Shown one piece after another: positions 14,078 to 34,334 of a DNA stretch of 64,000 nucleotides; position 1 is the stretch's first letter; each line of letters begins with the position of its first letter. A model generated the notes under the pieces. That model was not told the origin of the DNA, did not search any database, and was given only the letters and a program-made list of their open reading frames with translations. The translations under genes and the position numbers were made by a program. Source of the DNA: Sinorhizobium medicae. Lineage in GTDB: Bacteria > Pseudomonadota > Alphaproteobacteria > Rhizobiales > Rhizobiaceae. The stretch lies in assembly GCF_007827695.1 (NCBI RefSeq), contig NZ_VITA01000003.1, positions 248,001-312,000 on the forward strand. Direction: 5' to 3'.

Positions 14078-14929
14078 TCAAACATTGGGAACCTTTTCGG
14101 CAACGAGATCGTGAAGTGTCCTGCCAATCAAGCCGTCCGGATCGGCAAGGTCCAGGACCACGCTCATGTGATTAAATCCAGGCGCCGCAAGAAGCTCCGC
14201 CTTCTCGTTCTTCGAAGCCAAAACGGCTTGAAACTGCATCGCCTGATCATGAAACGGCGTCGTCTCGTCTCCGCCATAGGCGACGATGCGGCGGGGGCAA
14301 GGATGTTGGCTGGAGGTGAGCGGCGACCAAGCGTTTGCCTCCGCCGCCGTCATCTGCGCTTCGTCCCGCAGGAAACTGTTCGGGATCCCGGAAAGGTCAT
14401 AGATGCCGCTCAGAAATAGGACGCCCTGTATGCTGGGCAACGAGGGCTCCCTGGTTTCTGACGATCCCGTCGCCGCGAGATAGGAGGCGAGATGCGCGCC
14501 TGCAGAATGGCCGCTCACCGTCAGTCGCCGGCAATCTGCGTCAAAATCCCCGGCGTGATGCTGAAGCCAGAGAACGGATCGCCGCACCTGATCGACCAGC
14601 ACATTGAGCCGCGTGCCAGGCATGAGGTCGTATTCGATAAAGGCAGCAACGCCGCCGGCGGCCAGGACCGGCTTGGCCACGAAGCGGTAGTTCTCCTTTT
14701 CGCCAGACCGCCAATAGCCGCCGTGCACAAAAACATGGAGCGGCGCTCCGGCTTTCGGGTGTTCCGGCAAAATGACGTCCAAGACTTCCCGGGTGCGGGA
14801 TCCGTACCGCAGGTCGGCCAGCACATTCGTTTCGGCTGACAGCGCACGGCTACGCTCCGCAAACTCAGCGGCAATGGCGTCGAAGTCTGGCACGAAGTCG
14901 CGAATTCGATAGAGGTCTTGTGACGTCAT
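14078..14929 (-). CDS. Alpha/beta-hydrolase, kynurenine-formamidase-like
   Basis: A 283-residue protein. It has the HGGYW oxyanion motif typical of arylformamidase-like hydrolases, the nucleophile elbow SGHSAGAHLASYLA, an acid block near YGGDETTPF, and a His in GFNHMSVV. It is the last gene of the four-gene minus-strand operon, starting 17 bases after the aldehyde dehydrogenase stop. In that setting it may cleave an ester or amide of the operon's substrate rather than formylkynurenine, since no other tryptophan-pathway gene is present. Cytoplasmic, no signal peptide. Confidence 0.82.
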   Translation of the reverse strand: MTSQDLYRIRDFVPDFDAIAAEFAERSRALSAETNVLADLRYGSRTREVLDVILPEHPKAGAPLHVFVHGGYWRSGEKENYRFVAKPVLAAGGVAAFIEYDLMPGTRLNVLVDQVRRSVLWLQHHAGDFDADCRRLTVSGHSAGAHLASYLAATGSSETREPSLPSIQGVLFLSGIYDLSGIPNSFLRDEAQMTAAEANAWSPLTSSQHPCPRRIVAYGGDETTPFHDQAMQFQAVLASKNEKAELLAAPGFNHMSVVLDLADPDGLIGRTLHDLVAEKVPNV

Positions 14930-14946
14930 CTTCTCATTCTCCAGGA

Positions 14947-16410
14947 TCAGTAGTCCACTGCGTAATACTTCGCCTCCATGAATTCCAGAATGCCTGTTAC
15001 CCCGCCTTCGCGCCCGAGGCCGCTCTGCTTGACGCCACCAAACGGGGCGGCGGGATCAGACATCAGGCCCCGGTTGATGCCGAGCATGCCCGCTTCCAGG
15101 CGCTTGCCCACCTTCATGGCGCGTTTCAGGTCTCCACTGTAAATATAGGCGGCGAGCCCGTACTCGGTGTCGTTCGCAAGGCGGATGACCTCCTCCTCGC
15201 TATCGAATTTGTAGATAGGCGCCACAGGGCCGAAGATCTCTTCCCGCGCGATCGCGGCATCGACCGGCACGTTTTCGAGAACGGTCGGCGGATAGAAGTA
15301 GCCATTTTCAGAAAGCGGTTTGCCCCCGGTCGTCGCACGGGCGCCTCCGGCAACCGCATCCGAGACGAGTCTGTCGATCTTGCGCACCGCGTTCTGCGTG
15401 ATCATCGGCCCGCATTGCGTGGACGGCTCATACCCCGGGCCGATCTTGAGCGCGGCCATTCGGGCCGTCAGACATGCGACGAAGGCGTCGTGGATGCCAG
15501 ACTGGACGTAGAAGCGGTTGGCGGCGGTGCAGGCCTCACCGGCATTGCGCATCTTTGCGACCATGGCGCCGTCGATCGCGGCTTCCAGATCGGCGTCGTC
15601 GAAGACAACGAAGGGCGCATTGCCGCCGAGTTCCATCGAGCAGCTGACGACCGATTTGGCGGCTTCGGCAAGGAGCGTGCGGCCGACTCCGGTCGAGCCG
15701 GTGAAGGAGAGCTTGCGTACGCGCGGATCGGCGAGCATGGCATTCGTTACCTCGGCCGGCCTGCTCGTGGTCAGCACGTTTACGACGCCTGCCGGCACCC
15801 CAGCCTCTTCCCCGAGTCGCGCCATGGCATAGGCGGTGAGCGGTGTTTCGGACGCCGGCTTCAGAATGACGGTGCAGCCGGCAGCGAGCGCCGGGCCGAT
15901 CTTGCGCGTCGCCATGGCAGCCGGGAAATTCCAGGGCGTAATCAGGACGGCGATACCGATCGGCTCATGGTCGACGAGGATATGGTGCGAGCCGGAAGGC
16001 GTGTGTCTGTATTCACCGGGAATGCGCGTCGCCTCTTCCGCGTACCAGCGGAAGAACTCAGCCGCATAGGTCACTTCTCCGCGGGCGTCGGACAAGGCCT
16101 TGCCGTTTTCGAGCGCGATGAGGGTCGCGAGGTCTTCGGCATGCTGGGTCATGAGCTGGAACCAGCGCCGCAGGATTTCTGAACGCTGACGGGCCGGGGT
16201 GTCGCGCCACCCCGCCGCCGCAGTCTCTGCGGCGGCGACGGCGCGGATCGCGTCCTCGACCGAGGCGTCAGCGACTTCGGTCAGCCTGTTGCCAGTCGAG
16301 GGATCTGTAACTGCTATGCCGCTGCCCTTCTGCCACTTGCCGCCGATATAAAGGCCCTCGGCATGAAGGGCCGGGTCGGCATAGCCGGAAATCCTGGTTT
16401 GGAACGTCAT
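14947..16410 (-). CDS. NAD(P)-dependent succinate-semialdehyde-type dehydrogenase
   Basis: A 487-residue aldehyde dehydrogenase of the GabD group. Visible blocks are WNFPAAM (cofactor), FTGSTGVGR (Rossmann), MELGGNAPFVVFDDAD (catalytic Glu) and GEACTAANRFYV (catalytic Cys), ending with the PFGGVKQSGLGREGG segment. It oxidises an aldehyde to the acid with NAD(P). The start at 16410 has an AAGGA site and lies about 20 bases after the Fe-alcohol dehydrogenase stop. Its place directly after an alcohol dehydrogenase suggests it uses that enzyme's aldehyde product; the exact substrate is unknown. Confidence 0.9.
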   Translation of the reverse strand: MTFQTRISGYADPALHAEGLYIGGKWQKGSGIAVTDPSTGNRLTEVADASVEDAIRAVAAAETAAAGWRDTPARQRSEILRRWFQLMTQHAEDLATLIALENGKALSDARGEVTYAAEFFRWYAEEATRIPGEYRHTPSGSHHILVDHEPIGIAVLITPWNFPAAMATRKIGPALAAGCTVILKPASETPLTAYAMARLGEEAGVPAGVVNVLTTSRPAEVTNAMLADPRVRKLSFTGSTGVGRTLLAEAAKSVVSCSMELGGNAPFVVFDDADLEAAIDGAMVAKMRNAGEACTAANRFYVQSGIHDAFVACLTARMAALKIGPGYEPSTQCGPMITQNAVRKIDRLVSDAVAGGARATTGGKPLSENGYFYPPTVLENVPVDAAIAREEIFGPVAPIYKFDSEEEVIRLANDTEYGLAAYIYSGDLKRAMKVGKRLEAGMLGINRGLMSDPAAPFGGVKQSGLGREGGVTGILEFMEAKYYAVDY

Positions 16411-16430
16411 GTCGGCTGTCCTTTTCAAGT

Positions 16431-17630
16431 TCAATTCAGGCAGGACCGGTCGCCGCGATAGGCGGCGGCGACGAGATTGCGCATTTCTTTCGGGTTCAAG
16501 GGGCGGGGATTGTTCTGAATGAGGCGCGTGATGCCGGAGCTTTGCTCCGCCACCCAGTCGATTCGCTCCTCTTCAAGGCCGAGGTCCCGGAGCGTGCCGG
16601 GTATCCCGATCCGAGCGAAGAGGGAAACAAGAGCCGGTATCACCTCGTCCGGTCCATCCAGCCCCGCCGCCTGAGCAATCCTCCCCAGTTCGTCTCTCAT
16701 GAGGGGGGCGTTCCAGGTCATGACATAGGGCATGAGGCAGGCGACGCCGAGGCCGTGGGCGGTATGGGTGAGGGCGCCCACGGGATATTGGATGGCGTGC
16801 GCGGCGGCGGTGCCGGCGACGCCGAAGGCAAGGCCGGCGAGCGTTGAGCCGAGCATCACCTTTTCACGCGCCGCGTGGTCGGCGCCGTTCCGACAGGCCG
16901 ATTCCAGCCCCTGCCACAGAAGGGCGATGGCGCTGAGAGCGAAATGGTCGGACAATTCGTTCTTGCCGACGAACACACGCTGCTGCGAGATGCCCGGCAC
17001 GGGATCGCGCCGGATCGCCGTGAATGCCTCGATCGCATGCGTCAGCGCGTCCGCGCCCGCAATCGCCGTCAGGCGGGGCGGGCAGGAAAGGGTCAGTTCC
17101 GGGTCGCAGATCGATACGGTCGGGATCAGGTGCGGGCTCGAAATGCCGACCTTCAGGCTGCGCTCGGCATCCGAAAGCACGGCGACGGGCGTCACCTCCG
17201 AGCCGGTTCCGGCGGTGGTGGGAATGGCGATCAGTGGAATGACCGGCCCCGGTACGGTGTGCTCGCCATAATAATCCTGCGGCTGACCGCCATGGGTCAG
17301 AAGCAGGGCAATGCATTTTGCCATGTCGAGGCATGAGCCGCCACCGACACCGATGACGAGGTCCGGCTCAAAGCTCCGGGCGCCCACGGAGCTGGACATC
17401 GCGGAATCCACGGGAACGTCCGGCAGGGTGGAACTGTCAACCATGACTGCGAGGCCCGCTTCATCGAGTTGCCGAACGAGTGATAGAAGGTCTGCATCCG
17501 CAGCAAGACGTGTGTCCGTGACGATCAGCGCGCGCCGGCCGATCCTGGCCGCGATGCTGCCGAGCGCATGCCGCTGGCCCGCGCCGAAGAGCAGTTCGCG
17601 CGGCGCCCTCAATGTGCCGAATAGGTTCAT
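16431..17630 (-). CDS. Iron-containing alcohol dehydrogenase
   Basis: A 399-residue group III alcohol dehydrogenase. The NAD-binding block GVGGGSCLDMAK and the iron-binding segment are clear: GADALTHAIEAF gives Asp and His, and GALTHTAHGLGVA gives the two further His. IPTTAGTGSE is also present. It interconverts an alcohol and an aldehyde in the cytoplasm. The frame is open 75 codons further upstream, but that part overlaps the previous gene; the start at 17630 is 22 bases after that gene's stop. Family members include lactaldehyde, propanediol and maleylacetate reductases, so the direction cannot be read from sequence. Confidence 0.92.
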   Translation of the reverse strand: MNLFGTLRAPRELLFGAGQRHALGSIAARIGRRALIVTDTRLAADADLLSLVRQLDEAGLAVMVDSSTLPDVPVDSAMSSSVGARSFEPDLVIGVGGGSCLDMAKCIALLLTHGGQPQDYYGEHTVPGPVIPLIAIPTTAGTGSEVTPVAVLSDAERSLKVGISSPHLIPTVSICDPELTLSCPPRLTAIAGADALTHAIEAFTAIRRDPVPGISQQRVFVGKNELSDHFALSAIALLWQGLESACRNGADHAAREKVMLGSTLAGLAFGVAGTAAAHAIQYPVGALTHTAHGLGVACLMPYVMTWNAPLMRDELGRIAQAAGLDGPDEVIPALVSLFARIGIPGTLRDLGLEEERIDWVAEQSSGITRLIQNNPRPLNPKEMRNLVAAAYRGDRSCLN

Positions 17631-17652
17631 TGGCGTATTTCCTCCGATAGGT

Positions 17653-18657
17653 TCAGGCGGCCTCAAGGGCCATAAGATGTTCGTAAAGCGGTTGCGGCAG
17701 ATCGATTCCCGCTTCTGCCGTCGCGGCGCGACGCGCCCGCGCGCCGTCGCCCGGAACGGTGACCGGACTTGCGGGATTGACGGGGCGGGACAGGCGCAGG
17801 CGGTCGAGATAGGCCGCAAGCGGCCCGAGGGTACCGCTCGCCCCTGCCGGATCAATCAGGACGAGGAGATCGCCCTTGTTGGCAGGATGGGTGTCGTCCA
17901 GCGTGCCGTGCACATCCGGTGCAAAATCGGAGCCGGCAAGTGCCGCGACGAGAAGCTCGATCGCAAGGCCAAGCCCATAACCTTTCGCGCCGCCGAACGG
18001 CGCGATTGCACCGGCCTTGGCGGCGTGCGGGTCCGTCGTCGGGCGGCCTTCGCCATCGACGGCCCAGCCCTCCGGGATTGGCATGTCGCGCATGGCATGA
18101 TTGTTGATCTTGCCCATGGAAACCACGCTGGTCGCCAGATCCAGCACGAAAGGGCGGTCGCCGGAGGGGATTCCGATGGCGAGGGGATTTGTGCCCAGCA
18201 TAGCCTCAGTGCCACCGAACGGATGGACGAGTGCCTCGCTGGTCGACATGACTATGCCGATCAAGCCGTCCCTTGCGGCGGCCTCCGCATAATAGGCAAG
18301 CATGCCGATGTGGTTGGCGTTGCGGATCGCGGCCACGGCGATGCCCGTCTCGCCCAGTATGCTTCGCATGATTCGCATCGCGTTCAGGACGACGACCGGT
18401 CCCAACCCGCGTTCGCCGTCCATGCTGAGAAAAGCCTGACGCCGCCATATTCCCGACCCGCGCGCTCGCGCATCCGCCAGGCCTTTGTCCAGTCGCGACA
18501 GAATGAGCGGCAGCCGCTGCAGGCCATGTGACGGCAATCCACGCAGTTCCGCTTCGATTAGAAGATCGGCCTGTAGGCGGGCACTTTCGGTTGGTGCGTT
18601 TCGTCGTTCGAGAAGTGTCACCGCCAACTCCCGAAGCCCTGTCGGCTGCAGCTTCAT
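17653..18657 (-). CDS. LDH2/malate-lactate-type NAD(P)-dependent 2-hydroxyacid dehydrogenase
   Basis: A 334-residue protein of the Ldh2 family (unrelated to Rossmann-fold LDH). Key blocks are RGLPSHGLQRL (catalytic-site His in SHG), NANHIGML (His), GTNPLAIGIP, DLATSVVSMGKI and the PFGGAKGYGLGL nucleotide-binding segment. Such enzymes interconvert 2-hydroxy- and 2-oxoacids (malate, ureidoglycolate, sulfolactate, diketogulonate). It is the first gene of the minus-strand operon, facing the GntR gene across an AT-rich control region. Confidence 0.9.
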   Translation of the reverse strand: MKLQPTGLRELAVTLLERRNAPTESARLQADLLIEAELRGLPSHGLQRLPLILSRLDKGLADARARGSGIWRRQAFLSMDGERGLGPVVVLNAMRIMRSILGETGIAVAAIRNANHIGMLAYYAEAAARDGLIGIVMSTSEALVHPFGGTEAMLGTNPLAIGIPSGDRPFVLDLATSVVSMGKINNHAMRDMPIPEGWAVDGEGRPTTDPHAAKAGAIAPFGGAKGYGLGLAIELLVAALAGSDFAPDVHGTLDDTHPANKGDLLVLIDPAGASGTLGPLAAYLDRLRLSRPVNPASPVTVPGDGARARRAATAEAGIDLPQPLYEHLMALEAA

Positions 18658-18756
18658 CCGTAATCCTATATCAGATCATATACGATATTGTATTTGACAT
18701 CCGATATTTTATCTGGAACAAATGTCGCCGTGTCAAGCAGCAGTCGGAGAGTGAGA
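18658..18756. promoter_or_regulatory. Divergent operator/promoter region for the dehydrogenase and transporter operons
   Basis: This short AT-rich stretch separates two divergent operons. It holds TATAT-N6-ATATA (18667-18682), ATAC-GATATT-GTAT (18681-18692 region) and a repeated CGATATT (18683-18689 and 18702-18708, 19 bases apart, about two helical turns). A TTGACA hexamer lies at 18694-18699. The arrangement fits binding of the adjacent GntR regulator as dimers. Which repeat is the operator is inference. Confidence 0.6.
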
Positions 18757-19443
18757 GTGGCGTTTGCGGCAGAGCGAGAAGGCAGGGGGGCGAGCATTCG
18801 CCCGAGCAGTGTGGTCGATGGCGTCTACGACAGCATCTACCACCGGCTGATGTCTTTGGAGATCGCGCCGGGTTCCCGTATCCCGATTGACGTGTTCGCC
18901 CGGGATCTGGGCGTCTCCCAAACACCGATACGTGAAGCCCTGAGCCGGCTGGAGCGCGAAGGACTCGTGCGCAAGGAACATTTGATCGGTTATAGTGCGG
19001 CCCCTCAGTGGACGAGAAAGCAGTTCGAAGACCTCTATGTCTTCCGCCTGCTGGTCGAGCCCGAGGCCGCAAGGCTCGCGGCAGTCAACATGACGCCCGA
19101 TGCGCTCCGGCAGCTTGAGAATTCTGCCGCTGACATGGGGCATGGCGAGGCGCCGGTCGACCGCAACACGCGCTATTCCCGCTTTGCCCGCGCCGACGCG
19201 CAGTTCCATGATGCGATCCTGAAGGTCGCGGGAAACGAGGTGATCCGCAGCACGCTGTCGAACCAGCATGTTCATTTGCACATCTTCCGTTTGATGTTCC
19301 ACACGCGCGTGACACAGGAGGCGCTGGAAGAGCATGAGAACTTGCTCGCCGCCTTCCGGGCCGGCGATCCTCAGGCGGCATTCGACGCCATGCGTATCCA
19401 TATCGAGCGCTCGCGCGACCGGCTCCTTTCGGCTTTCGAATGA
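18757..19443 (+). CDS. GntR-family (FadR/FCD type) transcriptional regulator
   Basis: A 228-residue regulator. Residues 20-85 form the winged helix with the family block VSQTPIREALSRLEREGLV, and the C-terminal part is an all-helical FCD ligand domain with the metal-binding pattern (Asp in ARADAQFHDAIL, His residues in EEHENLLAAF and IHIERSRDRL). Start is GTG; 18757 has GGAG seven bases upstream, with 18751 an alternative. Its stop overlaps the next ATG as ATGA, so regulator and transporter are translated together. It probably senses the imported compound or a product. Confidence 0.9.
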   Translation: MAFAAEREGRGASIRPSSVVDGVYDSIYHRLMSLEIAPGSRIPIDVFARDLGVSQTPIREALSRLEREGLVRKEHLIGYSAAPQWTRKQFEDLYVFRLLVEPEAARLAAVNMTPDALRQLENSAADMGHGEAPVDRNTRYSRFARADAQFHDAILKVAGNEVIRSTLSNQHVHLHIFRLMFHTRVTQEALEEHENLLAAFRAGDPQAAFDAMRIHIERSRDRLLSAFE

Positions 19444-21032
19444 ACGCGGTCCTCTCACCCCAATCGCTGGCGCCGCCTGCAAGCCCTGCCATTGCGGCGC
19501 TCAGAGCCGACGGGCTCGTCAAGACCTATGGTTCGATCACCGTCCTGTCGGACGTGACGCTCGATATTCGTGCCGGAGAGGTCCACGCCATCATCGGCGA
19601 GAATGGCGCGGGCAAGTCGACGCTGATGAAGCTGTTGTCCGGCCATGTCGCACCGACGGCTGGCCATCTGCTCATAGAAGGTGAACCGGTCGAATTCCGC
19701 AACGCTGTGGAGGCGGAAGCCGCCGGCATCGTGCTCGTGCACCAGGAAATCCTGCTTGCCGCCGATCTCACTGTGGCGGAGAACCTGTTTTTAGGGCGGG
19801 AGCTTGGTCGCGGCCTGCTGGTGGACGACCGGCTGATGAACCAGCGCACGAGCGAGCTTCTGGCTCGCGTCGGCTCGACGGCGCGGCCGCGCGACCGGGT
19901 GGGCGACCTGCCCCTCGCACAGCGGCAGCTGGTACAGATCGCGCGTGCTCTCCTGGATGAACGCAAGGTCGTCATCCTGGACGAGCCGACTGCCATGCTT
20001 GCGAACGATGAGGTCGCGGCGCTGCTTGAGATCGTCCGCAGCCTACGCGACCGCGGTGTCGCAGTCCTTTATATTTCTCACCGTCTCGACGAAGTGCAGG
20101 CGCTTGCCGACCGCATCACCGTGCTTCGCGACGGGCAAATGATCGGCACCTGGCCGGCGGCGGGCCTCGGCCAGCGCGATATGGCGGAGTTGATGGTCGG
20201 GCGAAAGCTCGAAATGCTCTACCCGCACAAACGGCCCGCCGTCAGCGGCGCGCCGATCCTGTCTGTGACCGAGCTTTCCGTGGAACACGGCAGGCAGTCA
20301 GCGTCCTTCGCCGTCTGTCCGGGCGAGGTGCTTGGCATAGGCGGCATGATCGGGGCGGGGCGCACCGAACTGATCGAGGGCCTGATGGGTCTTCGCCCGT
20401 CGGAGGCGGCAAGCGTCGTCTTCAACGGCCGGGAGATCGTGCATCGCTCCGTGCGCAGCCTGATGGATGCCGGTCTCGTCTACTTGACCGAGGACCGCAA
20501 GGGCAAGGGCCTGCTCCTGGAGGAGAAGCTTGGCCCCAACCTCACCCTGCAGGCTCTCGACAAGGTCAATCCCGGCACCGCCCTTGACAAGCGGGCAGAG
20601 TTTTCTTGTCTCGAAAAAGCGGTTGAGGCCTACGACATCCGCGTGCGCTCGCCGCGACTGGAGGCCGGCAAGCTTTCAGGCGGCAACCAGCAGAAGCTGC
20701 TGCTTGCCAAGGTGATGATGGCCGATCCCTCGGTGGTCGTCATCGACGAACCGACGCGCGGCATCGACATCGGCAACAAGAGCCAGATCTACGACTTCAT
20801 CGACGCCATGGTTCGCGCAGGCAAGGCTTGCATCGTCATCTCGTCGGAAATGCCCGAACTGGTGGGGCTTGCCGACCGCGTTCTCGTGATGCGGGCCGGC
20901 AGGATCGTCGCCGAATTTCGCGGCTCTGAAATCAATGAGGAAAATGTCGTCTACGCCGCCACGACCGGTGGGCGCGCAGAAGCCGGAGAGTATGAACATG
21001 ATCGCAGCGACAGCAACAATCGTACCGGCTGA
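19440..21032 (+). CDS. Sugar-type ABC transporter ATP-binding protein (RbsA/XylG class)
   Basis: A 530-residue protein with two ABC domains in tandem. The first has Walker A GENGAGKSTLMK and Walker B VVILDEPTAML, with a divergent signature region. The second has a degenerate Walker A (GMIGAGRTE), the signature LSGGNQQK, and Walker B VVVIDEPTRG. Two domains with a decayed second P-loop are usual for CUT2-family sugar importers. Its last 41 bases overlap the permease gene. Confidence 0.95.
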   Translation: MNAVLSPQSLAPPASPAIAALRADGLVKTYGSITVLSDVTLDIRAGEVHAIIGENGAGKSTLMKLLSGHVAPTAGHLLIEGEPVEFRNAVEAEAAGIVLVHQEILLAADLTVAENLFLGRELGRGLLVDDRLMNQRTSELLARVGSTARPRDRVGDLPLAQRQLVQIARALLDERKVVILDEPTAMLANDEVAALLEIVRSLRDRGVAVLYISHRLDEVQALADRITVLRDGQMIGTWPAAGLGQRDMAELMVGRKLEMLYPHKRPAVSGAPILSVTELSVEHGRQSASFAVCPGEVLGIGGMIGAGRTELIEGLMGLRPSEAASVVFNGREIVHRSVRSLMDAGLVYLTEDRKGKGLLLEEKLGPNLTLQALDKVNPGTALDKRAEFSCLEKAVEAYDIRVRSPRLEAGKLSGGNQQKLLLAKVMMADPSVVVIDEPTRGIDIGNKSQIYDFIDAMVRAGKACIVISSEMPELVGLADRVLVMRAGRIVAEFRGSEINEENVVYAATTGGRAEAGEYEHDRSDSNNRTG

Positions 21033-21993
21033 GGAGGGCACCCGTATCCGCTGGGCCGATCTGGCGCCCTTTATCGCTCTTGCAGCAATCGTGCTGTTTG
21101 GCGCGCTCGTGAACGACAATTTCGTTTCATCGGCCAACCTGATCAACGTGGTAACGCGCAGCGCCTTCGTGGCCATAATTGCCGTTGGAGCGACCTTCGT
21201 CATTTCATCCGGGGGGCTCGACCTTTCCGTCGGCTCGATGATGGCCTTCGTCACCGGCATTATGATCATGGCGATGAACCACCTCGTTCCGTCCTTCGGG
21301 GACTGGGCAATCCCGATGGGAGCAGGTGTGGCGCTGGTAGTCGGCGTGATGTGCGGGTTGCTCAACGGTCTCATCGTGACGATCGGGCGCATAGAGCCCT
21401 TCATTGTGACGCTGGGCACGATGGGCATCTTCCGCGCCTTCATCACCTTCTTGACAGACGGCGGCTCCCTGCCCATCGACCGCAGTCTGCGGGAGGCCTA
21501 CCGGCCGGTCTATTTCGGCAGCCTCTTCGGCATTCCCTATCCCGTGCTGATCACCTTCGTCGTCGTCATGCTGGGCGCTTTCCTGCTCTATAAGACGAAA
21601 TACGGCCGCCGCCTGACCTCGGCCGGCTCGAATGTCGAAGTCGCCCGTTTTTCCGGCGTCAATGTCTCAGGTGTCCGCACCGTCGCCTATGTGATCCAGG
21701 GTGTCTGCGTCGCGGTTGCGGCCATCTGCTACGTGCCGCGTCTCGGCGCCGCGACGCCGACGACCGGGCAACTCTGGGAATTACAGGTCATCACCGCCGT
21801 CGTGATCGGCGGCACCCTACTTCGCGGCGGACGAGGGCGTATCGGCGGTACCGTGGCCGGCGCGCTCATTCTCGAGGTGATCGCCAACGTCATGGTCCTT
21901 TCGGACATGGTCTCGGAATACCTCGTCGCCGCCGTGCAGGGCACGATCATCATCATCGCCATGCTGGCGCACCGCTTTACCGCCAACCGCTGA
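20992..21993 (+). CDS. Sugar-type ABC transporter permease (RbsC class)
   Basis: A 333-residue inner-membrane protein with about ten hydrophobic helices, beginning ADLAPFIALAAIVLFGAL. It has the CUT2 permease hallmarks SSGGLDLSVGSMMAF and GRIEPFIVTLGTMG near the middle, and the GGTLLRGGRGRIGGT segment in the last third. The start at 20992 is preferred for its GGAGAG ribosome site inside the ATPase gene's end. It forms the channel with the adjacent ATPase and binding protein. Confidence 0.94.
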   Translation: MNMIAATATIVPAEEGTRIRWADLAPFIALAAIVLFGALVNDNFVSSANLINVVTRSAFVAIIAVGATFVISSGGLDLSVGSMMAFVTGIMIMAMNHLVPSFGDWAIPMGAGVALVVGVMCGLLNGLIVTIGRIEPFIVTLGTMGIFRAFITFLTDGGSLPIDRSLREAYRPVYFGSLFGIPYPVLITFVVVMLGAFLLYKTKYGRRLTSAGSNVEVARFSGVNVSGVRTVAYVIQGVCVAVAAICYVPRLGAATPTTGQLWELQVITAVVIGGTLLRGGRGRIGGTVAGALILEVIANVMVLSDMVSEYLVAAVQGTIIIIAMLAHRFTANR

Positions 21994-22021
21994 AAACAGC
22001 ACTGACTTCAAGGAGGAGAAA

Positions 22022-22990
22022 ATGAAGTCCATGAAAAAAAAGGCCTGTCTCTTGTTATCGACCGCCGCGCTGATCCTCGCCCTGCCGCTCGGCAGTGCCC
22101 ATGCCGAGAACAGTAAGGTGACGATCGCCGTCTCGATTCCGGCCGCTACGCATGGATGGACGGGCGGAGTCGTCTACCATGCCGAGCAGGCGGAAAAGGA
22201 ACTTGAAGCCGCCTTCCCGAATGTCGACGTCGTGCTGTCGACGGCATCCTCCGCTACCGCACAAGTCTCCGCCCTCGAAGACCTTTCGGCAAGCCGCAAG
22301 CTCGACGCGCTGGTCATCCTGCCATTCACCTCTGAGGAACTGACCGGACCGGTCGAGCAGATCAAGCAGAAGGGCACCTTCATTTCCGTTGTCGACCGCG
22401 GCCTCACGGATCCGAACGTGCAGGATCTCTATGTCGCCGGCGACAACATTGCCGTCGGCGCCAACACTGCGCACTGGCTCGCTGACAAACTTGGCGGCGA
22501 GGGCAAAATCGTTGTGCTGCGCGGCATTCCCACCGTCATCGACGACGAACGCATCAAGGGTTTTTCCGACGTCATCAGCAAGACCAAGATAGAGATCCTC
22601 GACATTCAGTATGCCAACTGGAATCAGGATGAAGCCTTCAAGCTGATGCAGGACTATCTTGCGAAGTATCCAGAGATCGATGCCGTCTGGGCGAACGACG
22701 ATGACATGCTGCTCGGTGTCCTGGAGGCCATCGACAATGCAGGGCGCAAGGACATCAAATACGCCCTCGGCGGCAACGGCATGAAGCAGATCATCGAGAT
22801 GGTGAAGGCCAAGGACGAGCGCACGCCGATCTCGACTCCCTACCCGCCGTCGATGATCAAGTCGGCAATGTACATGACGGCGGCGCAGTTCAATGGACAG
22901 GCACCGGTACGCGGTTCCTTCCTGCTGGGCGCGCCGCTGATCACGCCGGAGAATGCCGACCAGTTCTACTTTCCCGATTCACCATTCTGA
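22022..22990 (+). CDS. Periplasmic sugar-binding protein (RbsB class)
   Basis: A 322-residue type 1 periplasmic binding protein with a Sec signal (LLLSTAALILALPLGSAHAE). The mature chain follows the ribose-binding layout: VTIAVSIPAATHGWTGGVVY, a LDALVILPFTSEEL strand-turn, FISVVDRGL, GEGKIVVLRGIP, WANDDDMLLGVLEAID. The ligand is probably a small polyol or sugar, but residues around the pocket do not tell me which. A strong AAGGAGGAG site precedes it. Confidence 0.93.
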   Translation: MKSMKKKACLLLSTAALILALPLGSAHAENSKVTIAVSIPAATHGWTGGVVYHAEQAEKELEAAFPNVDVVLSTASSATAQVSALEDLSASRKLDALVILPFTSEELTGPVEQIKQKGTFISVVDRGLTDPNVQDLYVAGDNIAVGANTAHWLADKLGGEGKIVVLRGIPTVIDDERIKGFSDVISKTKIEILDIQYANWNQDEAFKLMQDYLAKYPEIDAVWANDDDMLLGVLEAIDNAGRKDIKYALGGNGMKQIIEMVKAKDERTPISTPYPPSMIKSAMYMTAAQFNGQAPVRGSFLLGAPLITPENADQFYFPDSPF

Positions 22991-22997
22991 TCCGAAA

Positions 22998-23022
22998 CGG
23001 TGCCTGGTAGATCCGGGCACCG
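22998..23022 (+). terminator. Intercistronic hairpin after the binding-protein gene
   Basis: Arms CGGTGCC (22998-23004) and GGCACCG (23016-23022) form a seven-base stem with an eleven-base loop. It lies between the binding-protein gene and the PfpI gene without a T-run. It may stabilise the upstream mRNA, giving more binding protein, rather than stop transcription. Confidence 0.45.
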
Positions 23023-23052
23023 CCTGACATCCATGACAACAGGAGACATGAC

Positions 23053-23640
23053 ATGAGCGGCAAGAAAATCCTCATGCTGACCGGTGAGTTCACCGAGGAA
23101 TATGAGATCTACGTGTTCCAGCAGGGGATGGAGGCAGTTGGCCATACGGTTCACGTCGTCTGCCCGGACAAAAAGGCTGGCGACCGCATCAAGACCTCTC
23201 TGCACGACTTCGAGGGCGACCAGACCTACACGGAGAAGCTCGGCCATTATGCCGACATCAACAAGACGTTCTCCGACGTGCGCGTCGAGGAATATGACGC
23301 GGTCTATGCGGCCGGGGGCCGCGGGCCGGAATATATCCGCACCGACAAACGCATCCAGGACATGGTCCGCCATTTTCATGATACCGGCAAGCCGATCTTC
23401 ACGATCTGCCATGGCGTGCAGATCCTGATGGCTGTCCCTGGCGTGCTGGAAGGCCGCAAAGTTGCCGGCCTCGGCGCCTGCGAACCGGAGGTCACGGCTG
23501 TCGGTGGCACCTATATCGACGTGAAGCCCACCGAGGCCTATGTCGACGGCAATATGGTCTCGGCAAAGGGATGGACGGGCCTTGCAGCTTTCATGCGCGA
23601 GTGCCTGAACGTGCTCGGCACGAAGATCACGCACACCTAG
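23053..23640 (+). CDS. DJ-1/PfpI-family protein
   Basis: A 195-residue protein with the class I amidotransferase-like fold. The nucleophile elbow is FTICHGVQ with Cys119-His120, and an acidic residue near the N-terminus (GEFTEEYE, residues 11-18) matches the conserved Glu that contacts the Cys. Family members act as glyoxalases/deglycases or peptidase-like hydrolases. It is the last gene of the transporter operon. A possible role is clearing or converting a reactive aldehyde formed from the imported compound; that is inference. Confidence 0.9.
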   Translation: MSGKKILMLTGEFTEEYEIYVFQQGMEAVGHTVHVVCPDKKAGDRIKTSLHDFEGDQTYTEKLGHYADINKTFSDVRVEEYDAVYAAGGRGPEYIRTDKRIQDMVRHFHDTGKPIFTICHGVQILMAVPGVLEGRKVAGLGACEPEVTAVGGTYIDVKPTEAYVDGNMVSAKGWTGLAAFMRECLNVLGTKITHT

Positions 23641-28162: not shown

Positions 28163-29107
28163 CTATTCACGCGCGATCTTCTCGACGAAATAGCGCGGGA
28201 TCTGGTCGCGTTCGCGTCGGCGGTAGAACTCCACGCAAAAACCCACAAAGGCCTTGAATCGGCGGGAAACGTGCCGCCGCCGCGAATAGATAAGGTTGAT
28301 TGCCGTTTCGCGCGACCGCCATTCCGCAAGGACGGGCACCAAAAGCCCGCTCTGGCACTCCGTTTCGACGAAGAAGCCCGGGAGATAGGCGATGCCCTGT
28401 CCGGCGACGGCGAAATATTTGAGGGTCCAGTAGTCGTTCGCCGTCAGCGCGGCCGTGAGCAGGATTTCCGTCTCCGGTCCGCCCGGCCGAGAAAGGTACC
28501 AGGGCTGCAACCTCGTCGTGCTGCGAAAGATCAGGCCCCGGTGGCGCGCCAGTTCGGCTTCGCTTGCCGGTTGATCGTGCTGAGCCAGATAATCGGGGCT
28601 GGCATAGAGGCCGTAGGAAGCCGTTGCCAGCCGGCGGCTGACATAGTCGACGTCGGATGGCTCGCCCCAATGAAAGATACCGTCCAGCGCCATGTCGGAA
28701 ACGTCGGTGAACGGCTGGCGGGCGGAGAGGAACACGACGTCGAGGATGACCTGCGGATACTTCATCTGAAAGGCGTAAAGCAGTTCGGAGGTGACGGTGG
28801 TGCCGAACTCGCCCGTCGAGCCGACCCTGAGCGTTCCCGCCACCTCCTTGTGCATCTCGGCCATTGCGGTGGCCGCATCGTCGCAGCTCGTCCGAATCTT
28901 CCGCGCATGGCGCAGGAGTTCCGAGCCGGCATCGGTCAGGTGCAGCTGATGGCCCTCGCGCACGAACAGCTCGACACCGAATTGGTCTTCCAGTTGCCGG
29001 ATGCGGTGGCTAAGGGTCGACTTCGGCAGCCGATGCAGGCGCGATGCTGCCGAAATCGACCTTGCATCCGCCACTTTCACGAAACAATCGATTACTGAAA
29101 GGTCCAT
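28163..29107 (-). CDS. LysR-family regulator of the purine locus
   Basis: A 314-residue LysR protein. The N-terminal helix-turn-helix reads SISAASRLHRLPKSTLSHRI. The effector domain starts GTLRVGSTGEFGTTV. It is divergent from the adenine deaminase 1 gene with 116 bases between, so it most likely controls the deaminase-permease-deaminase unit. The C-terminus (FYRRRERDQIPRYF) is longer than usual. The effector is perhaps a purine; that is inference from context only. Confidence 0.9.
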   Translation of the reverse strand: MDLSVIDCFVKVADARSISAASRLHRLPKSTLSHRIRQLEDQFGVELFVREGHQLHLTDAGSELLRHARKIRTSCDDAATAMAEMHKEVAGTLRVGSTGEFGTTVTSELLYAFQMKYPQVILDVVFLSARQPFTDVSDMALDGIFHWGEPSDVDYVSRRLATASYGLYASPDYLAQHDQPASEAELARHRGLIFRSTTRLQPWYLSRPGGPETEILLTAALTANDYWTLKYFAVAGQGIAYLPGFFVETECQSGLLVPVLAEWRSRETAINLIYSRRRHVSRRFKAFVGFCVEFYRRRERDQIPRYFVEKIARE

Positions 29108-29198
29108 TCCGCCGCTTCCATTCGTGCAAGTTGTTGGACGATGCGTCCGATCCTAGACCTGTTTCGGCCAGTTGTTCAAACGAAAGCCGACTGAAATA

Positions 29199-29217
29199 CT
29201 CCCTTCCGACAAGGGAG
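29199..29217 (+). promoter_or_regulatory. Hairpin that covers the ribosome site of adenine deaminase 1
   Basis: Arms CTCCCTT (29199-29205) and AAGGGAG (29211-29217) are perfect complements with a five-base loop. The right arm contains most of the Shine-Dalgarno (GGGAGG, 29213-29218), six bases before the ATG at 29224. When folded, the site would be masked, so translation may be controlled here. Whether it is regulatory is untested. Confidence 0.55.
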
Positions 29218-29223
29218 GTCAGA

Positions 29224-31050
29224 ATGTCCGACATTCGAGAATTCATCCGCGCCGCTTCGGGCGGGGAGTCGAAGGCGACCGTGGCTGTTTGCGGCGGCCG
29301 GCTGGTCAATGTTGTTTCCGAAGAGATCTATCAGGCTGACGTCGCCATCTACCGCGATCGCATCGTCGCGGTCGGCGATATCAGCGAATATATCGGGCCG
29401 CAGACGGAGATCATCGACGTGACCGGCAGATATCTCACCCCGGGGATGATAGATGGCCATCTTCACGTCGAATGCTCGAAACTGTCGCTGACGAGCTTTG
29501 CCAAAGCCGTTCTGCCGCTAGGCACGACGTCGATCGTGTCCGGCCTCGACCAGATCATCGTCGTTGGCGGTCCGGACGCCGCACGTGAATTCCTGGATGA
29601 GGTCAGGCAGACGCCGCTCAAGGTATTTTGGGGTGCGCCGTGCAAGACGCCCTACACCATGCCCCGCTCCACCGTCGGCCACTATTTCGGCCCGAAGGAC
29701 CACCGTGACACGCATCATTGGCCGGAATGCGTCGGGATATGGGAGACCGTGCGAGAATTCATCCAGGAGGAGGACGACGACGTCCTGCAGGCCATAGAGA
29801 TCGGTCAGGCGAACCGCCTGCCTGTGCTCGGTTGCTGTCCGATGACCCGCGGCGCGCGCCTCAACGGATACATGCAGTCGGGCGTGCGTGCCGATCACGA
29901 GAGCTACACCCCCGAGGAAATGCTGGAGAAGCTGCGCGCGGGCATGCACGTAGTCGTGCGTGAATCCTCCATCTCTCACTTTTTGTCCGACAATCTGCGC
30001 ATCGTCACGGAGATGGGGGCAAAGGCGCTGCGCCGCATCAGCTTCTGCACGGACGATGTTGTAGCCAGCGACATTCTTTCCCGCGGACATCTCGACAATA
30101 TGGTCCGGATGGCGATCGCCATGGGAATTTCACCGATGGCGGCCGTCCAGATGGCGACGATCAACGGAGCGGAAGCACTGCGCATCGATCACAAGGTCGG
30201 TTCGATCTCTCCGGGACGCACCGCCGACATCCTGATTGTCAACGACTTGCGTGACTTCCGCATTGAGGCGGTCGTGGCAAACGGTACTCTGGCTGCGCGC
30301 GACGGGCGCATGACGGTGGAACTGGTGCCGCCGCAGCGCAGCGCCGGCCTGCTGCGGTCCGTCAAGGCTGCGCCAGTCGCGGCCGCAGAGATCGCCGTGC
30401 CCTTCACCGGCACGACGCCCTTCGCCGAGGTGCTCGCGATCGCGGTGACGCCGGAGAAGGTCTTCGTGCGTACCCGCCGGGACGTGACCCTGCCGGTCGT
30501 CGATGGGAAGATCCTCGCCGACGCGGGCCAGAACGTGCAATACGTGACGGTGGTCGAGCGCCATGGCAAGACGCGGAACCGACCCGTCGCCTTCGTGTCG
30601 GGCTTCAACCTGAAATCCGGCGCCATCGCCAGCTCCACGGCCCCGGACGACAACAACATCATTTGCATCGGTGCCGATCCCCAGGACATGGCGATCGCCA
30701 TCAACCACCTCATCGCCAATAATGGGGGTCAGGTCGTGGTCGACGACGGCGAGGTCGTCGAATTCCTGCACTTGCCGATCGGCGGCATCGTGTCCGACAT
30801 CGATCCCGCGGAGATGGCGGCGTTCGAATTGCGCCTGGACGAGGCGGCCCGCAGGCTCGGCTGCGATCTGCCCTGGCCGTTCATGTACATGTTCGTGCTG
30901 CAGATCACCGCCATCCCGGATTATGCCATGACCGATCTCGGGGTCGTCGATTGCGTCAATCTGCGGATCATTTCGCCGCTGGACCCGGATGGGCCTGCCA
31001 AGGCGACGACGCTTGCGGCGGAGCAGGAGAACCGTCAAGCGATTCGATGA
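29224..31050 (+). CDS. Divergent adenine-deaminase-family amidohydrolase (paralogue 1)
   Basis: A 608-residue amidohydrolase of the adenine deaminase (Ade) family by overall alignment with paralogue 2. HLHVE (residues 79-83, first metal site) and CTDD are kept. Two family motifs are lost: the DPHEIANVLG block is replaced around residues 106-110 by SGLDQ, and HDSHN near the C-terminal domain is replaced by PDDNN. The usual ESS after HxH reads ECS. It probably deaminates or hydrolyses a related but different heterocycle. It is first in a unit with the NCS2 permease and paralogue 2. Confidence 0.85.
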   Translation: MSDIREFIRAASGGESKATVAVCGGRLVNVVSEEIYQADVAIYRDRIVAVGDISEYIGPQTEIIDVTGRYLTPGMIDGHLHVECSKLSLTSFAKAVLPLGTTSIVSGLDQIIVVGGPDAAREFLDEVRQTPLKVFWGAPCKTPYTMPRSTVGHYFGPKDHRDTHHWPECVGIWETVREFIQEEDDDVLQAIEIGQANRLPVLGCCPMTRGARLNGYMQSGVRADHESYTPEEMLEKLRAGMHVVVRESSISHFLSDNLRIVTEMGAKALRRISFCTDDVVASDILSRGHLDNMVRMAIAMGISPMAAVQMATINGAEALRIDHKVGSISPGRTADILIVNDLRDFRIEAVVANGTLAARDGRMTVELVPPQRSAGLLRSVKAAPVAAAEIAVPFTGTTPFAEVLAIAVTPEKVFVRTRRDVTLPVVDGKILADAGQNVQYVTVVERHGKTRNRPVAFVSGFNLKSGAIASSTAPDDNNIICIGADPQDMAIAINHLIANNGGQVVVDDGEVVEFLHLPIGGIVSDIDPAEMAAFELRLDEAARRLGCDLPWPFMYMFVLQITAIPDYAMTDLGVVDCVNLRIISPLDPDGPAKATTLAAEQENRQAIR

Positions 31051-31073
31051 TGTTCAATAAGGGGAGGAACACT

Positions 31074-32474
31074 ATGAACTATCAGTCGAAAGTCGCGGGA
31101 GATCCCGCCAGGCCGGAGAAACGCGGGCTCGGCGGTGCCATCGACCGCCTGTTTGAGGTCACCCGCAGCGGATCGACGATCCGCACGGAGATCATCGCCG
31201 CCCTGACGACGTTTCTGGCGGCGTCCTATGTCATCGTGGTCAATCCCGCAATCCTGCAGAATGCGGGCATCCCCTTTTCCGCAGGGGTCACGGCCACCGT
31301 CCTGGTCAGCTTTATCGGCAGCTGCGCTATGGGGCTTTATGCGCGCAGTCCCATTCTCGTCGCGCCCGGAATGGGCATAAACGCGCTTTTTGCCTACACG
31401 ATGGTGATGGGAGCGAACGTGCCGCTGGAAATCGCTCTCGGCTGCGTGTTCTGGGCCGGCGTGCTCTTCACCATTCTCGCCATGCTCAACCTGCGCACGG
31501 CCGTCATCGAGGCGATCCCGAAGGACCTGCGCTACGGAATTGCTTGCGGCATCGGCCTGTTCATTGCGCTGATCGGTCTGGAGAACGCCAAGTTCATCGT
31601 CGCCAGCCCGGATACGATCGTCGCCCTGACCCAGTTCACGCCGGTTACGCTCACCTTCGTCGCCGGCTTCATCATCACGGCTGCGCTGGTCGTGCGCCGC
31701 ATACCGGGCGCGATGATGGCGGGCATGATCATCACCACCGTGCTTGCGATCCCGATCGGTCGCCTGTGGGGAGACGGCAGCGCCTTTGCGGGTGGCGCGC
31801 CGGATGTCCACACGCTCGTCAACTGGAGCGGGCTGTTTGCCGCGCCCGATTTCAGCTTTGTCGGCCGGGTCGACCTTCTCGGTGCCCTTCAGGTCGCCTA
31901 TGCGCCGTTCATCTTCGTCTTTCTCTTCACCAATTTCGTTGAGGCGCTGTCGACATTCCTCGGGCTCGCGGAGGCGGCCAACCTGAAGGACGAGAGCGGG
32001 ATGCCACGCAACATCAAGGAATCGATGCATGTCGATGCCGTAGCAGCGCTGATTTCCGCCCCGCTCGGCACCAGCCCGGCAACGGTCTACCTGGAATCGG
32101 GCGCCGGCATCGCGCAGGGTGGGCGGACGGGCCTCGTCGCCTTCGTTGCCGGGCTCCTGTTCCTGCCGTTCCTGTTCCTTTCGCCGCTCCTTTCGCTGGT
32201 GCCGGCGATTGCCACGGCGCCCGTGCTCATCCTCACCGGCCTCTTCATGTCGGAGCCGATGGGAAGGATCAACTGGGCGGACATGGAGGACGCCATCCCG
32301 GCCTTCCTCGCAATCGTGCTCATTCCGCTGACGTTTTCGATTACGCTCGGCCTGTCGCTTGCCATCATCGCCTTCGTCGTGATGAAGCTGGCGCTCGGAA
32401 AGATTTCCGAGATCAGGCCCGTCATGTGGTTCGTCGCCGTGCTTGCCGCGATGCTGGTGATGCAGGTTCAATGA
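31074..32474 (+). CDS. NCS2-family purine permease (AzgA/PbuG type)
   Basis: A 466-residue inner-membrane protein with about 13 hydrophobic helices. Typical AzgA-like features are seen: GSTIRTEIIAALTTFLAASY at the start, the VAPGMGINALFAYT motif after helix 3, and LGTSPATVYLESGAGIAQGG in the second half. These transporters bring in adenine, hypoxanthine or guanine with protons. Start 31074 is backed by AAGGGGAGG upstream. It lies 23 bases after the deaminase 1 gene and supplies the substrate of the two deaminases. Confidence 0.93.
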   Translation: MNYQSKVAGDPARPEKRGLGGAIDRLFEVTRSGSTIRTEIIAALTTFLAASYVIVVNPAILQNAGIPFSAGVTATVLVSFIGSCAMGLYARSPILVAPGMGINALFAYTMVMGANVPLEIALGCVFWAGVLFTILAMLNLRTAVIEAIPKDLRYGIACGIGLFIALIGLENAKFIVASPDTIVALTQFTPVTLTFVAGFIITAALVVRRIPGAMMAGMIITTVLAIPIGRLWGDGSAFAGGAPDVHTLVNWSGLFAAPDFSFVGRVDLLGALQVAYAPFIFVFLFTNFVEALSTFLGLAEAANLKDESGMPRNIKESMHVDAVAALISAPLGTSPATVYLESGAGIAQGGRTGLVAFVAGLLFLPFLFLSPLLSLVPAIATAPVLILTGLFMSEPMGRINWADMEDAIPAFLAIVLIPLTFSITLGLSLAIIAFVVMKLALGKISEIRPVMWFVAVLAAMLVMQVQ

Positions 32475-32546
32475 TCTCCTCCGGTGGCGTCGCGGTGCGG
32501 CGCCGCCGGTTCGTATAGGTACTTGGATTGGGAAGGATCGGCAGAA

Positions 32547-34334
32547 ATGCTGCAGCCATGGTCTGAAATCGCGCCACGCCTCGTAGATGTCGCGATGGGG
32601 CGGAAGCAAGCGGATTTGGTCGTCCGCAACGGCAGGTGGGTGAACGTCTATTCCGGGGAGATCGTCCCGGGCACCGATGTCGCGATCGTCGCGGGCCGCT
32701 TCGCCTATGTCGGTCCCGATGCCGGCCACACGATCGGGGAGGGGACCAGGATCGTGGATGCGGCCGGCCGCTACCTCCTACCCGGTCTCTGCGACGGTCA
32801 CATGCATGTCGAGAGCGGGCTGGTGACGGTCAGCGAGTTCGCCCGCGCCGTCATTCCGCACGGCACGACGACCATGTTCGTAGACCCTCACGAAATCGCC
32901 AACGTGCTCGGCATGCCCGGCGTGAAGCTGATGAACGACGAGGCGCAGAGCCTGCCCGTCAACATCTTCGTGCAGGTCCCGAGCTGCGTACCGAGCGCGC
33001 CTGGCCTGGAGAATGCCGGCGCGACGCTGAGCGCCGTGGACGTGCGCGAAGCCCTTGCCTGGCCCAACATCATCGGGCTTGGCGAGATGATGAACTTCCC
33101 GGGGGTCGCTGGGAACGATCCCAAAATGGTTGCGGAAATCGCCGCAACGCAGGCCGCAGGCCTGACGGTCGGCGGACACTATGCCTCTCCGGACCTTGGC
33201 CGGGCCTTCCATGCCTATGCCGCCGGCGGCCCGGCAGACGACCACGAGGGAACCACCGTCGACGACGCGATCGCGCGCGTTCGGCAGGGCATGCGGGCCA
33301 TGCTTCGCCTTGGTTCGGCCTGGTTCGACGTGGCGGCACAGGTCAAGGCGATCACCGAACGGGGCATCGATCCACGTAATTTCGTGCTCTGCACGGATGA
33401 CAGCCACTCCGGCACGCTGGTCAATGACGGCCACATGAACCGGGTCGTTCGCCACGCTATCGCCCGGGGCCTGAAGCCGATCACCGCGATCCAGATGGCG
33501 ACCCTCAACACCGCGCAGCACTTCGGCCTGGAGAGGGAGCTGGGCTCGATCGCCCCCGGCCGCCGCGCCGATCTTATCGTTACCACCGATCTGACCGCCT
33601 TGCCCATCGAGATGGTGTTCGGGCGAGGCCGGCTGCTGGCGGAGAAGGGGGTGCTGGTTGCCGACATTCCCGCCTATGACTATCCGGCGAGTGCGAAAAA
33701 CACGGTGAAACTCGGCAAGAGGCTTGCCGCAACCGACTTCGATTTTTCCGCGGCCGGAGGGTCGGACGTCGAGGTGCGGGTGATAGGCGTCGTCGAAAAC
33801 CAGGCCCCGACCAAAGCCTTGCAGCGCCGGCTGCCGGTGGAAAGCGGCGTAGTGCAGATGGACCGCGCCGGCGACGTCTGCCAGATCGCGCTGGTCGAGC
33901 GCCATCGGGCGACCGGCGGCGTGGTCAACGCCTTCGTTTCCGGATTCGGTTACGACACCGATTGCGCCATGGCCTCGACGGTTGCCCATGACAGCCACCA
34001 CATGATCATCGTCGGCACGAACAAGGCCGACATGGCGCAGGCCGCCAACCGGCTGCAGGAGGTAGGCGGTGGCATCGTGCTTATTGCCGGCGGGCGAGAG
34101 CTCGCTCTCGTCGAACTGCCGATCGCCGGCCTCATGTCGGACGAGCGCGCCGAAGTCGTGGCGGAAAAGGCCAGTCGCCTCGTGGAAGCCATGCGCGCCT
34201 GCGGCTGCAAACTCAACAATGCCTATATGCAGCATTCTTTGCTGGCCTTGGCGGTGATTCCGGAACTGCGTATTTCCGACATCGGCCTCATCGACGTGAC
34301 GCGCTTCGAAAAGACCGAGGTCATCCTTCGTTAG
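32547..34334 (+). CDS. ade: Adenine deaminase (canonical, paralogue 2)
   Basis: A 595-residue enzyme with the full set of family motifs: HMHVES (residues 85-90), HGTTTMFVDPHEIANVLG (with D113-x-H115-E116), GLGEMMNFPG, CTDDSH and VAHDSHH in the C-terminal domain. It hydrolyses adenine to hypoxanthine and ammonia using a two-metal site, feeding purine salvage or use of adenine as a nitrogen source. It follows the permease by 72 bases. A GGAAGG site precedes the ATG. Confidence 0.93.
   Translation: MLQPWSEIAPRLVDVAMGRKQADLVVRNGRWVNVYSGEIVPGTDVAIVAGRFAYVGPDAGHTIGEGTRIVDAAGRYLLPGLCDGHMHVESGLVTVSEFARAVIPHGTTTMFVDPHEIANVLGMPGVKLMNDEAQSLPVNIFVQVPSCVPSAPGLENAGATLSAVDVREALAWPNIIGLGEMMNFPGVAGNDPKMVAEIAATQAAGLTVGGHYASPDLGRAFHAYAAGGPADDHEGTTVDDAIARVRQGMRAMLRLGSAWFDVAAQVKAITERGIDPRNFVLCTDDSHSGTLVNDGHMNRVVRHAIARGLKPITAIQMATLNTAQHFGLERELGSIAPGRRADLIVTTDLTALPIEMVFGRGRLLAEKGVLVADIPAYDYPASAKNTVKLGKRLAATDFDFSAAGGSDVEVRVIGVVENQAPTKALQRRLPVESGVVQMDRAGDVCQIALVERHRATGGVVNAFVSGFGYDTDCAMASTVAHDSHHMIIVGTNKADMAQAANRLQEVGGGIVLIAGGRELALVELPIAGLMSDERAEVVAEKASRLVEAMRACGCKLNNAYMQHSLLALAVIPELRISDIGLIDVTRFEKTEVILR

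Follow-up and report, generated by a model that had tools for sequence, protein, structure and literature searches.

The stretch of DNA analyzed here comprises 64,000 nucleotides of Sinorhizobium medicae (assembly GCF_007827695.1, contig NZ_VITA01000003.1, positions 248,001 to 312,000; hereafter, the window) and contains, at positions 14078-23640, a block of nine genes arranged in two facing (divergent) operons on a symbiotic plasmid of the pSymA type. Plasmids of S. medicae matched the binding protein and the LDH2-family 2-hydroxyacid dehydrogenase (LDH2) of the window at up to 100%. Taken as a whole, the block is best explained as a predicted self-contained, locally regulated uptake-and-oxidation pathway, a reading that we hold with middling confidence.

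Gene content and layout of the block

The left operon carries an alpha/beta hydrolase, an aldehyde dehydrogenase (ALDH) of the succinate semialdehyde dehydrogenase (SSADH) type, an iron-containing alcohol dehydrogenase (Fe-ADH) and LDH2; the right one carries a GntR/FCD regulator, a CUT2-type importer and a DJ-1/PfpI protein (PfpI) (Table 1). Every gene that an earlier note on this DNA had named was found in place, with Pfam in agreement, and as it had stated no kinase, aldolase or sulfolyase occurs within the nine genes. Its ribose-class importer is a sugar-class CUT2 system according to Pfam and NCBIfam, and its view of the block as a single catabolic module with such an importer was supported. 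The label "formamidase-like" given to the hydrolase was fair and unspecific, the best match in the PDB being "Lipase 1" and kynurenine formamidase coming second.

Table 1. Features of the nine-gene block, in positions of the window
Feature	Position	Strand	Basis
Alpha/beta hydrolase (BD-FAE / Abhydrolase_3), front-end hydrolase	14078-14929	-	Pfam; with PfpI in 60/61 loci
SSADH-type aldehyde dehydrogenase (Aldedh)	14947-16434, likely start 16410	-	Pfam, NCBIfam, alignment
Iron-containing alcohol dehydrogenase (Fe-ADH)	16431-17633	-	Pfam, NCBIfam
LDH2-family 2-hydroxyacid dehydrogenase (Ldh_2)	17653-18657	-	Pfam, PDB match
Palindrome ATCnTATAnGAT, presumed GntR operator	18675-18686		Divergent promoter gap, conservation
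GntR/FCD regulator	18688-19443, likely start 18751	+	Pfam; ml29 annotation
CUT2-type sugar ABC ATPase (double-domain)	19440-21032	+	Pfam, NCBIfam
CUT2-type ABC permease	20935-21993; start probably nearer ATPase gene end	+	Pfam, NCBIfam
CUT2 periplasmic binding protein (Peripla_BP_4), modified ribose-type pocket	22022-22990	+	Pfam, PDB match, alignment
DJ-1/PfpI protein, AtDJ-1d-like, two rebuilt loops	23053-23640	+	Pfam, PDB match, alignment

The GntR and ALDH genes probably start later than the listed open reading frames (ORFs), since the annotation of S. medicae strain ml29 gives genes of 693 and 1464 bp, equivalent to 18751-19443 and 14947-16410 of the window, respectively. Taking the shorter ALDH start, genes of the left operon are spaced by 17-20 bases. 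In the right operon the GntR and ATPase genes overlap by 4 bases, and gaps of 28 and 62 bases precede the binding protein and PfpI, respectively. A scan for promoters and terminators gave counts close to those expected by chance (1 against 2.3 and 10 against 7.2). In strain ml29 the permease region (L043, 10666-11626) has no annotated gene and its best ORF spans only 71% of the permease, so that the importer of this strain may be broken.

Distribution and variant types

The search of genomes for the same gene set, which the earlier note had proposed, was run with LDH2 as the only query; 35 of the 41 loci that it retrieved contained all nine genes, more than a chance grouping. The full set was not present in L016 (a 6-kb contig ending inside the block), L024, L027, L038, L040 and L041. 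A wider tally was made by tblastn, with identity thresholds set by us, on 92 loci gathered by different routes. A relative of Fe-ADH occurred in 89 of them (not in L040, L041 and L130), and 49 of these 89 contained all nine genes; a recount left the main tallies unchanged. Two loci in this collection (L091 and L095) duplicate others (L018 and L015), and L043 is another strain of the species of the window; many loci were fetched through a gene of the module, so that the counts do not represent natural frequencies. Presence and absence of genes refer throughout to the fetched stretches, whose neighboring genes were annotated selectively. In sampled whole genomes, own genome included, Fe-ADH was found at E 1e-80 in 36 of 397 from the order and 5 of 385 from the class, and at E 1e-75 in 9 of 398 from the phylum.

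Gene order was kept across Rhizobiaceae, Phyllobacteriaceae, Brucellaceae, Paracoccaceae, Roseobacteraceae and other families. PfpI was the most conserved product of the block, with a median identity to the window of 93.8% (33 loci), and the lowest medians corresponded to the hydrolase (66.4%, 34 loci) and LDH2 (70.0%, 38 loci; all values for matches above 40% in L001-L039).

Several variant types were observed. All genes but LDH2 were present in six loci (L049, L081, L082, L083, L110 and L113); L099 presented no match to LDH2 or the hydrolase, and L084 no LDH2 or importer. Rhizobium johnstonii and R. etli (L132 and L139) kept LDH2, Fe-ADH, SSADH, hydrolase, GntR and PfpI with no importer adjoining; the R. 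johnstonii module (L132, 3744-7456) is adjoined by UPF0261, PEP-hydrolase-like, cupin and M24 genes, and that of R. etli likewise. The core with LDH2 and without hydrolase or PfpI appeared in 21 loci, 13 with a GntR match and 8 with none. Their neighbors included dipeptide-type ABC transporters together with a mandelate-racemase-family enzyme, to which three of these plasmids add a fumarylacetoacetate-hydrolase-family protein near the core, and also an ABC transporter of the branched-chain type, accompanied by an M24 protein. In L111 the core adjoins proteins resembling RraA, RpiB and apiosidase, and another RraA-like protein was found in L098.

The same 21 loci include those of Aurantimonas and Aminobacter. 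In Aurantimonas (L024 and L027) a TRAP transporter replaces the CUT2 system and a PF04199 hydrolase (scanned in L024) replaces the alpha/beta hydrolase. PfpI was not found within the 21-kb stretch of these loci, as would be expected if PfpI were needed only for the CUT2 ligand. Downstream of the TRAP-type core, L024 also encodes a protein with a DRL-type oxidoreductase catalytic domain (18625-20007). The Aminobacter core is accompanied by a CUT2-type transporter, a PF04199 protein, an amidase, a creatininase-family protein and a relative of isopropylmalate dehydrogenase. The Pseudonocardia locus (L038) matched in no gene other than LDH2 (46%) and Fe-ADH (44%), and sugar-acid-dehydratase-like and other genes adjoin them. 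The core thus recurs with other importers and hydrolases, which vary around a constant oxidizing part.

Signatures of the enzymes, the importer and the presumed operator

An alignment of the window ALDH to E. coli GabD and human SSADH showed that it keeps R177, R296 and S459 (numbered along the listed ORF). In the human enzyme the equivalent positions are those that we take to hold the distal carboxylate group of succinate semialdehyde. This R-R-S clamp was present in 69 of 69 core ALDHs (at least 55% identity, as delivered by the gene caller) and in E. coli GabD; it was incomplete in E. coli AldA (R-I-E) and BetB (W-F-S), and five other neighboring ALDHs showed RRT, WSR, WGV, WVI and RMH at these positions. 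Mainly because the carboxylate clamp is conserved, the compound oxidized by Fe-ADH and ALDH probably carries its acid group from the outset. The ALDH missed the NCBIfam cut-offs in the best 25 of 44 matches listed, and Fe-ADH and LDH2 missed all those listed.

The LDH2 ortholog of S. meliloti 1021 is the protein of PDB entry 3UOE, three stretches from the 3UOE comparison having been found in L042. The nearest named PDB chain after this one was L-sulfolactate dehydrogenase ComC (2x06; 212 bits), which acts on an anionic 2-hydroxyacid and has the LDH2 family in common with the block protein. The best NCBIfam match was also L-sulfolactate dehydrogenase (NF040650), with a score of 246 bits far below the cut-off of 500. 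Since eight otherwise similar loci do not carry it, LDH2 looks like an add-on and not an obligatory third step.

PfpI followed the hydrolase closely. It was present in 61 of the 89 Fe-ADH loci, 60 of which also contained the hydrolase, as compared with 2 of the remaining 28, and in one of these two (L120) some 5 kb separate the hydrolase and the core. In a tree built from 87 Fe-ADHs, from which L043, L091 and L095 had been left out beforehand and in which near-copies favor clustering of labels, the presence of PfpI required four changes vs. a shuffled mean of 24.6, and none of 500 shuffles gave so small a number. PfpI is present throughout a clade of 62 rows (99/93), except in L096, the two Aurantimonas loci and the cut contig L016. 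This pattern would fit one gain and a few losses. As the most conserved of the nine products, and one that tracks the hydrolase, PfpI is not a side gene of the block.

The closest solved structures to PfpI were those of Arabidopsis DJ-1d (PDB 3uk7 and 4ofw; 314 and 312 bits, respectively). Glu, Cys and His, presumably the catalytic residues of glyoxalase III of the DJ-1d type and common to both proteins, were kept in 60 of 60 module PfpI rows, 60 of the 61 PfpI loci having given a row long enough for comparison. Where the second domain of DJ-1d has the stretches YPA and WPGHP, all 60 module rows presented L[GA]AC and GWT[GA]L. None of 23 control genes displayed this loop signature: six sister genes had L[HQ]YC and GWPGL and 17 more distant, canonical ones YPAC and WPAHP, the canonical YPA and WPxHP loops being read from the comparison set and not from a published definition. 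Short pieces of module loci (L051-L058) also carry the module signature, and L059-L063 and L092-L094 are duplicates of loci included in the count. The genome of the window has a single PfpI of the module type, its next match reaching 38% over part of the length. Sister genes (L085-L090; 75-77% identity to module PfpI) occur in six further genomes of this family, away from the core dehydrogenases, and the neighbor clusters that they share suggest another conserved setting.

The transporter showed the CUT2 architecture (double-domain ATPase, one permease and a Peripla_BP_4 binding protein), and NCBIfam grouped it with CUT2-type sugar systems, below all cut-offs among the matches listed. The best PDB match of the binding protein was 4joq (326 bits). 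With pocket positions and residue roles of RbsB as we understand them, the alignment indicated that Asp89, Arg90 and Arg141 are shared with RbsB-type proteins and that the other eight pocket positions are changed, the last one adjoining an alignment gap that makes its pairing unsure. Two pocket positions were N and T in 42 of 42 module rows vs. A and V in nine of nine distinct paralogs; the row of L100 deviates at another position. Types with and without LDH2 have an identical pocket and therefore probably share the ligand. Paralogs with about 50% identity (L044-L048 and L050) adjoin, in five of six cases (not L044), sugar-phosphate isomerase/epimerase and Gfo/Idh/MocA genes, possibly a glycoside pathway, and XylA/XylB are also beside some of them. 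As a guide to the ligand these paralogs were dropped, since their enzyme neighbors are other ones and the two pocket positions differ. A study of FRET (Förster resonance energy transfer) sensors built on S. meliloti binding proteins presents no pSymA sensor in the passage of its table (PMC3454389).

The palindrome ATCnTATAnGAT, a 12-mer, was exact in 54 of 58 GntR/LDH2 or GntR/Fe-ADH gaps (exceptions L110, L112, L118 and L124), a count that is not independent support because these gaps were also the source of the motif. It was exact in 72 of 157 loci, many of which do not contain the divergent gap. With one mismatch allowed, two matches occurred in the window as compared to 0.55 expected, and 9 of 100 shuffles reached two, so that the motif is not significant in the window alone. 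Its putative role is supported by conservation and by rarity, as the 6.5-Mb genome has it at three places. Of the two others, one lies inside a predicted 556-amino-acid ORF and one in a gap beside ORFs, and the regulon was therefore treated as local. In excerpts of a proteome study of S. meliloti (PMC12542648, Table 2), SMa0260 (GabD3) and SMa0263 of the left operon and SMa0270 of the right one belong to the same co-expression module, with log2 ratios in TY medium of -1.74, -1.78 and -2.18, respectively; the SMa tags were assigned as orthologs by product name and gene order rather than by an annotated record. Co-regulation of the two operons, on which the earlier note had relied, is supported by both this module and the shared-gap palindrome.

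Elsewhere in the window, Pfam indicated a xanthine/uracil-type permease flanked by two adenine-deaminase-like genes (29044-34334). Two long RTX-repeat proteins with serralysin C-terminal domains are encoded at 34557-37964 and 45442-47409, the second one also with a matrixin-type peptidase match, and a 727-amino-acid ORF (61707-63890) fuses a Gfo/Idh/MocA oxidoreductase and an aldo/keto reductase.

Proposed pathway and alternative explanations

In the pathway that we propose, the CUT2 importer would take up a small, uncharged molecule that resembles a sugar; a hydroxylated lactone, for example an aldonolactone, is the most likely candidate. The alpha/beta hydrolase and the diverged PfpI, as their pairing suggests, may convert it to an acid with a free terminal CH2OH; Fe-ADH would oxidize this group of the omega-hydroxyacid to a semialdehyde, and the SSADH-type ALDH, in keeping with its clamp, would produce the dicarboxylate. 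Where present, LDH2 might oxidize the 2-hydroxyl to yield a 2-oxo-dicarboxylate, as its family and position suggest. GntR/FCD is predicted to control both operons through the single intergenic palindrome, given its conservation. We tentatively propose, at somewhat less than an even chance, that a recruited DJ-1/PfpI protein with a rebuilt active-site surround acts as obligatory front-end enzyme, leading from the imported sugar-like compound to the omega-hydroxyacid used by the widespread Fe-ADH/SSADH/LDH2 core. Hydroxylated lactones are a first guess as substrate, a lactone resembling a sugar to the importer giving the best fit. Excerpts of a phenotypic study report growth of S. meliloti on D-ribono-1,4-lactone, and the use of 69 carbon sources without pSymA vs. 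73 (PMC4207669).

Several points weigh against this proposal. The excerpted text of the same study does not tie growth on ribonolactone to pSymA (PMC4207669), and the lactone must be imported as such, since the nine genes include no sugar dehydrogenase that would form it. The reaction of PfpI is a predicted one, at the level of a guess, and LDH2 did not appear in the fetched stretches of the eight loci mentioned. The window ALDH shares the Arg-Arg-Ser clamp with SSADH, its residue roles being those we assume, and falls below the NCBIfam cut-off for that enzyme (TIGR01780; 597 vs. 646 bits). The third clamp position is Ser also in BetB, R-R-T occurs both in another neighbor ALDH (L002) and in a Peribacillus SSADH, and the clamp could also hold a sulfonate. 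The literature searched on the SMa02xx tags, both PDB entries (3UOE and 4JOQ), pantothenate, blc, DJ-1d and ribonolactone contained data on expression and growth, assigned no function to the block and included no paper naming either PDB entry; excerpts of the S. meliloti metabolic model paper (PMC4961836) contain nothing on its genes.

Other explanations account for part of the same evidence. PfpI could act as a glyoxalase III on an imported osone- or deoxyosone-like sugar, forming a 2-hydroxyacid whose lactones the hydrolase would open, with Fe-ADH, SSADH and LDH2 acting as in our proposal. The proximity to Arabidopsis DJ-1d, the intact Glu, Cys and His and the very presence of a 2-hydroxyacid dehydrogenase are in line with this route, and literature excerpts describe the DJ-1d group as glutathione-independent glyoxalase III; however, the two loops are rebuilt relative to canonical DJ-1d in every module PfpI and in none of the canonical or sister proteins, which argues for a different substrate or reaction and leaves this alternative on the unlikely side. 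It is similarly unlikely, and slightly more so, that PfpI only repairs or detoxifies damage by reactive aldehydes off the pathway. Literature excerpts do describe DJ-1/PfpI proteins as detoxifying, but here PfpI tracks the hydrolase and not the aldehyde-forming core, 28 of the 89 Fe-ADH loci (one of them the cut contig L016) go without it, and both its unusual loops and the highest conservation in the block speak against such a role.

The classical enzyme order of pantoate/pantolactone degradation is EC 1.1.1.106, 1.2.1.33 and 1.1.1.84. The three dehydrogenases match it if the hydrolase frees pantoate and Fe-ADH, the SSADH-type enzyme and LDH2 act as pantoate 4-dehydrogenase, aldopantoate dehydrogenase and 3,3-dimethylmalate dehydrogenase, respectively, to give 2-oxoisovalerate. 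Related cores do adjoin amide-type hydrolases, RraA-like proteins and an isopropylmalate-dehydrogenase relative; the sugar-type pocket of the binding protein, the loci without LDH2 and a literature search on the pathway that yielded no paper on these genes, judged by title and start of abstract, make this distinctly improbable. The earlier note had proposed that a 1,2-diol or sulfonated diol passes through an aldehyde and a 2-hydroxyacid to a 2-oxoacid. Its enzyme families were right, but this order was not supported: the clamp in all core ALDHs compared suggests that the substrate of the alcohol dehydrogenase should already be an acid and argues against plain diols. A sulfonate could be bound by the clamp, and the best NCBIfam match of LDH2 points the same way; the low score of that match, the lack of LDH2 in eight loci and the absence of a genome match to sulfopyruvate decarboxylase alpha (ComD, TIGR03845) weaken the sulfonated diol, Xsc being present and other sulfo-lyases not having been searched. 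We consider the diol proposal quite improbable.

The least probable alternative, and a highly doubtful one, is a plain gamma-butyrolactone/4-hydroxybutyrate pathway analogous to Agrobacterium blcABC (attKLM; L160), which leads from a hydroxyacid through a semialdehyde to a dicarboxylate. Both systems have a hydrolase, Fe-ADH and SSADH in one operon, with the last two side by side and the same logic, and the ALDH is 49% identical to BlcA. Fe-ADH, in contrast, is only 36% identical to BlcB, and the hydrolase and regulator come from other families: the block hydrolase gave no BLAST match to AttM at E 1e-3 and does not qualify as an AttM-type lactonase, and blcABC has the IclR-type BlcR whereas the block has GntR/FCD together with its own CUT2 importer, LDH2 and PfpI, the last three of which a plain pathway would not need. 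The block would function like blcABC but is not a member of that system.

If the proposed uptake-and-oxidation pathway is true, it would provide a function for a subgroup of the DJ-1 family with a clear signature and an explanation of the orphan crystal structure 3UOE, and it would assign to the symbiotic plasmid of a model rhizobium a catabolic trait that can readily be tested.

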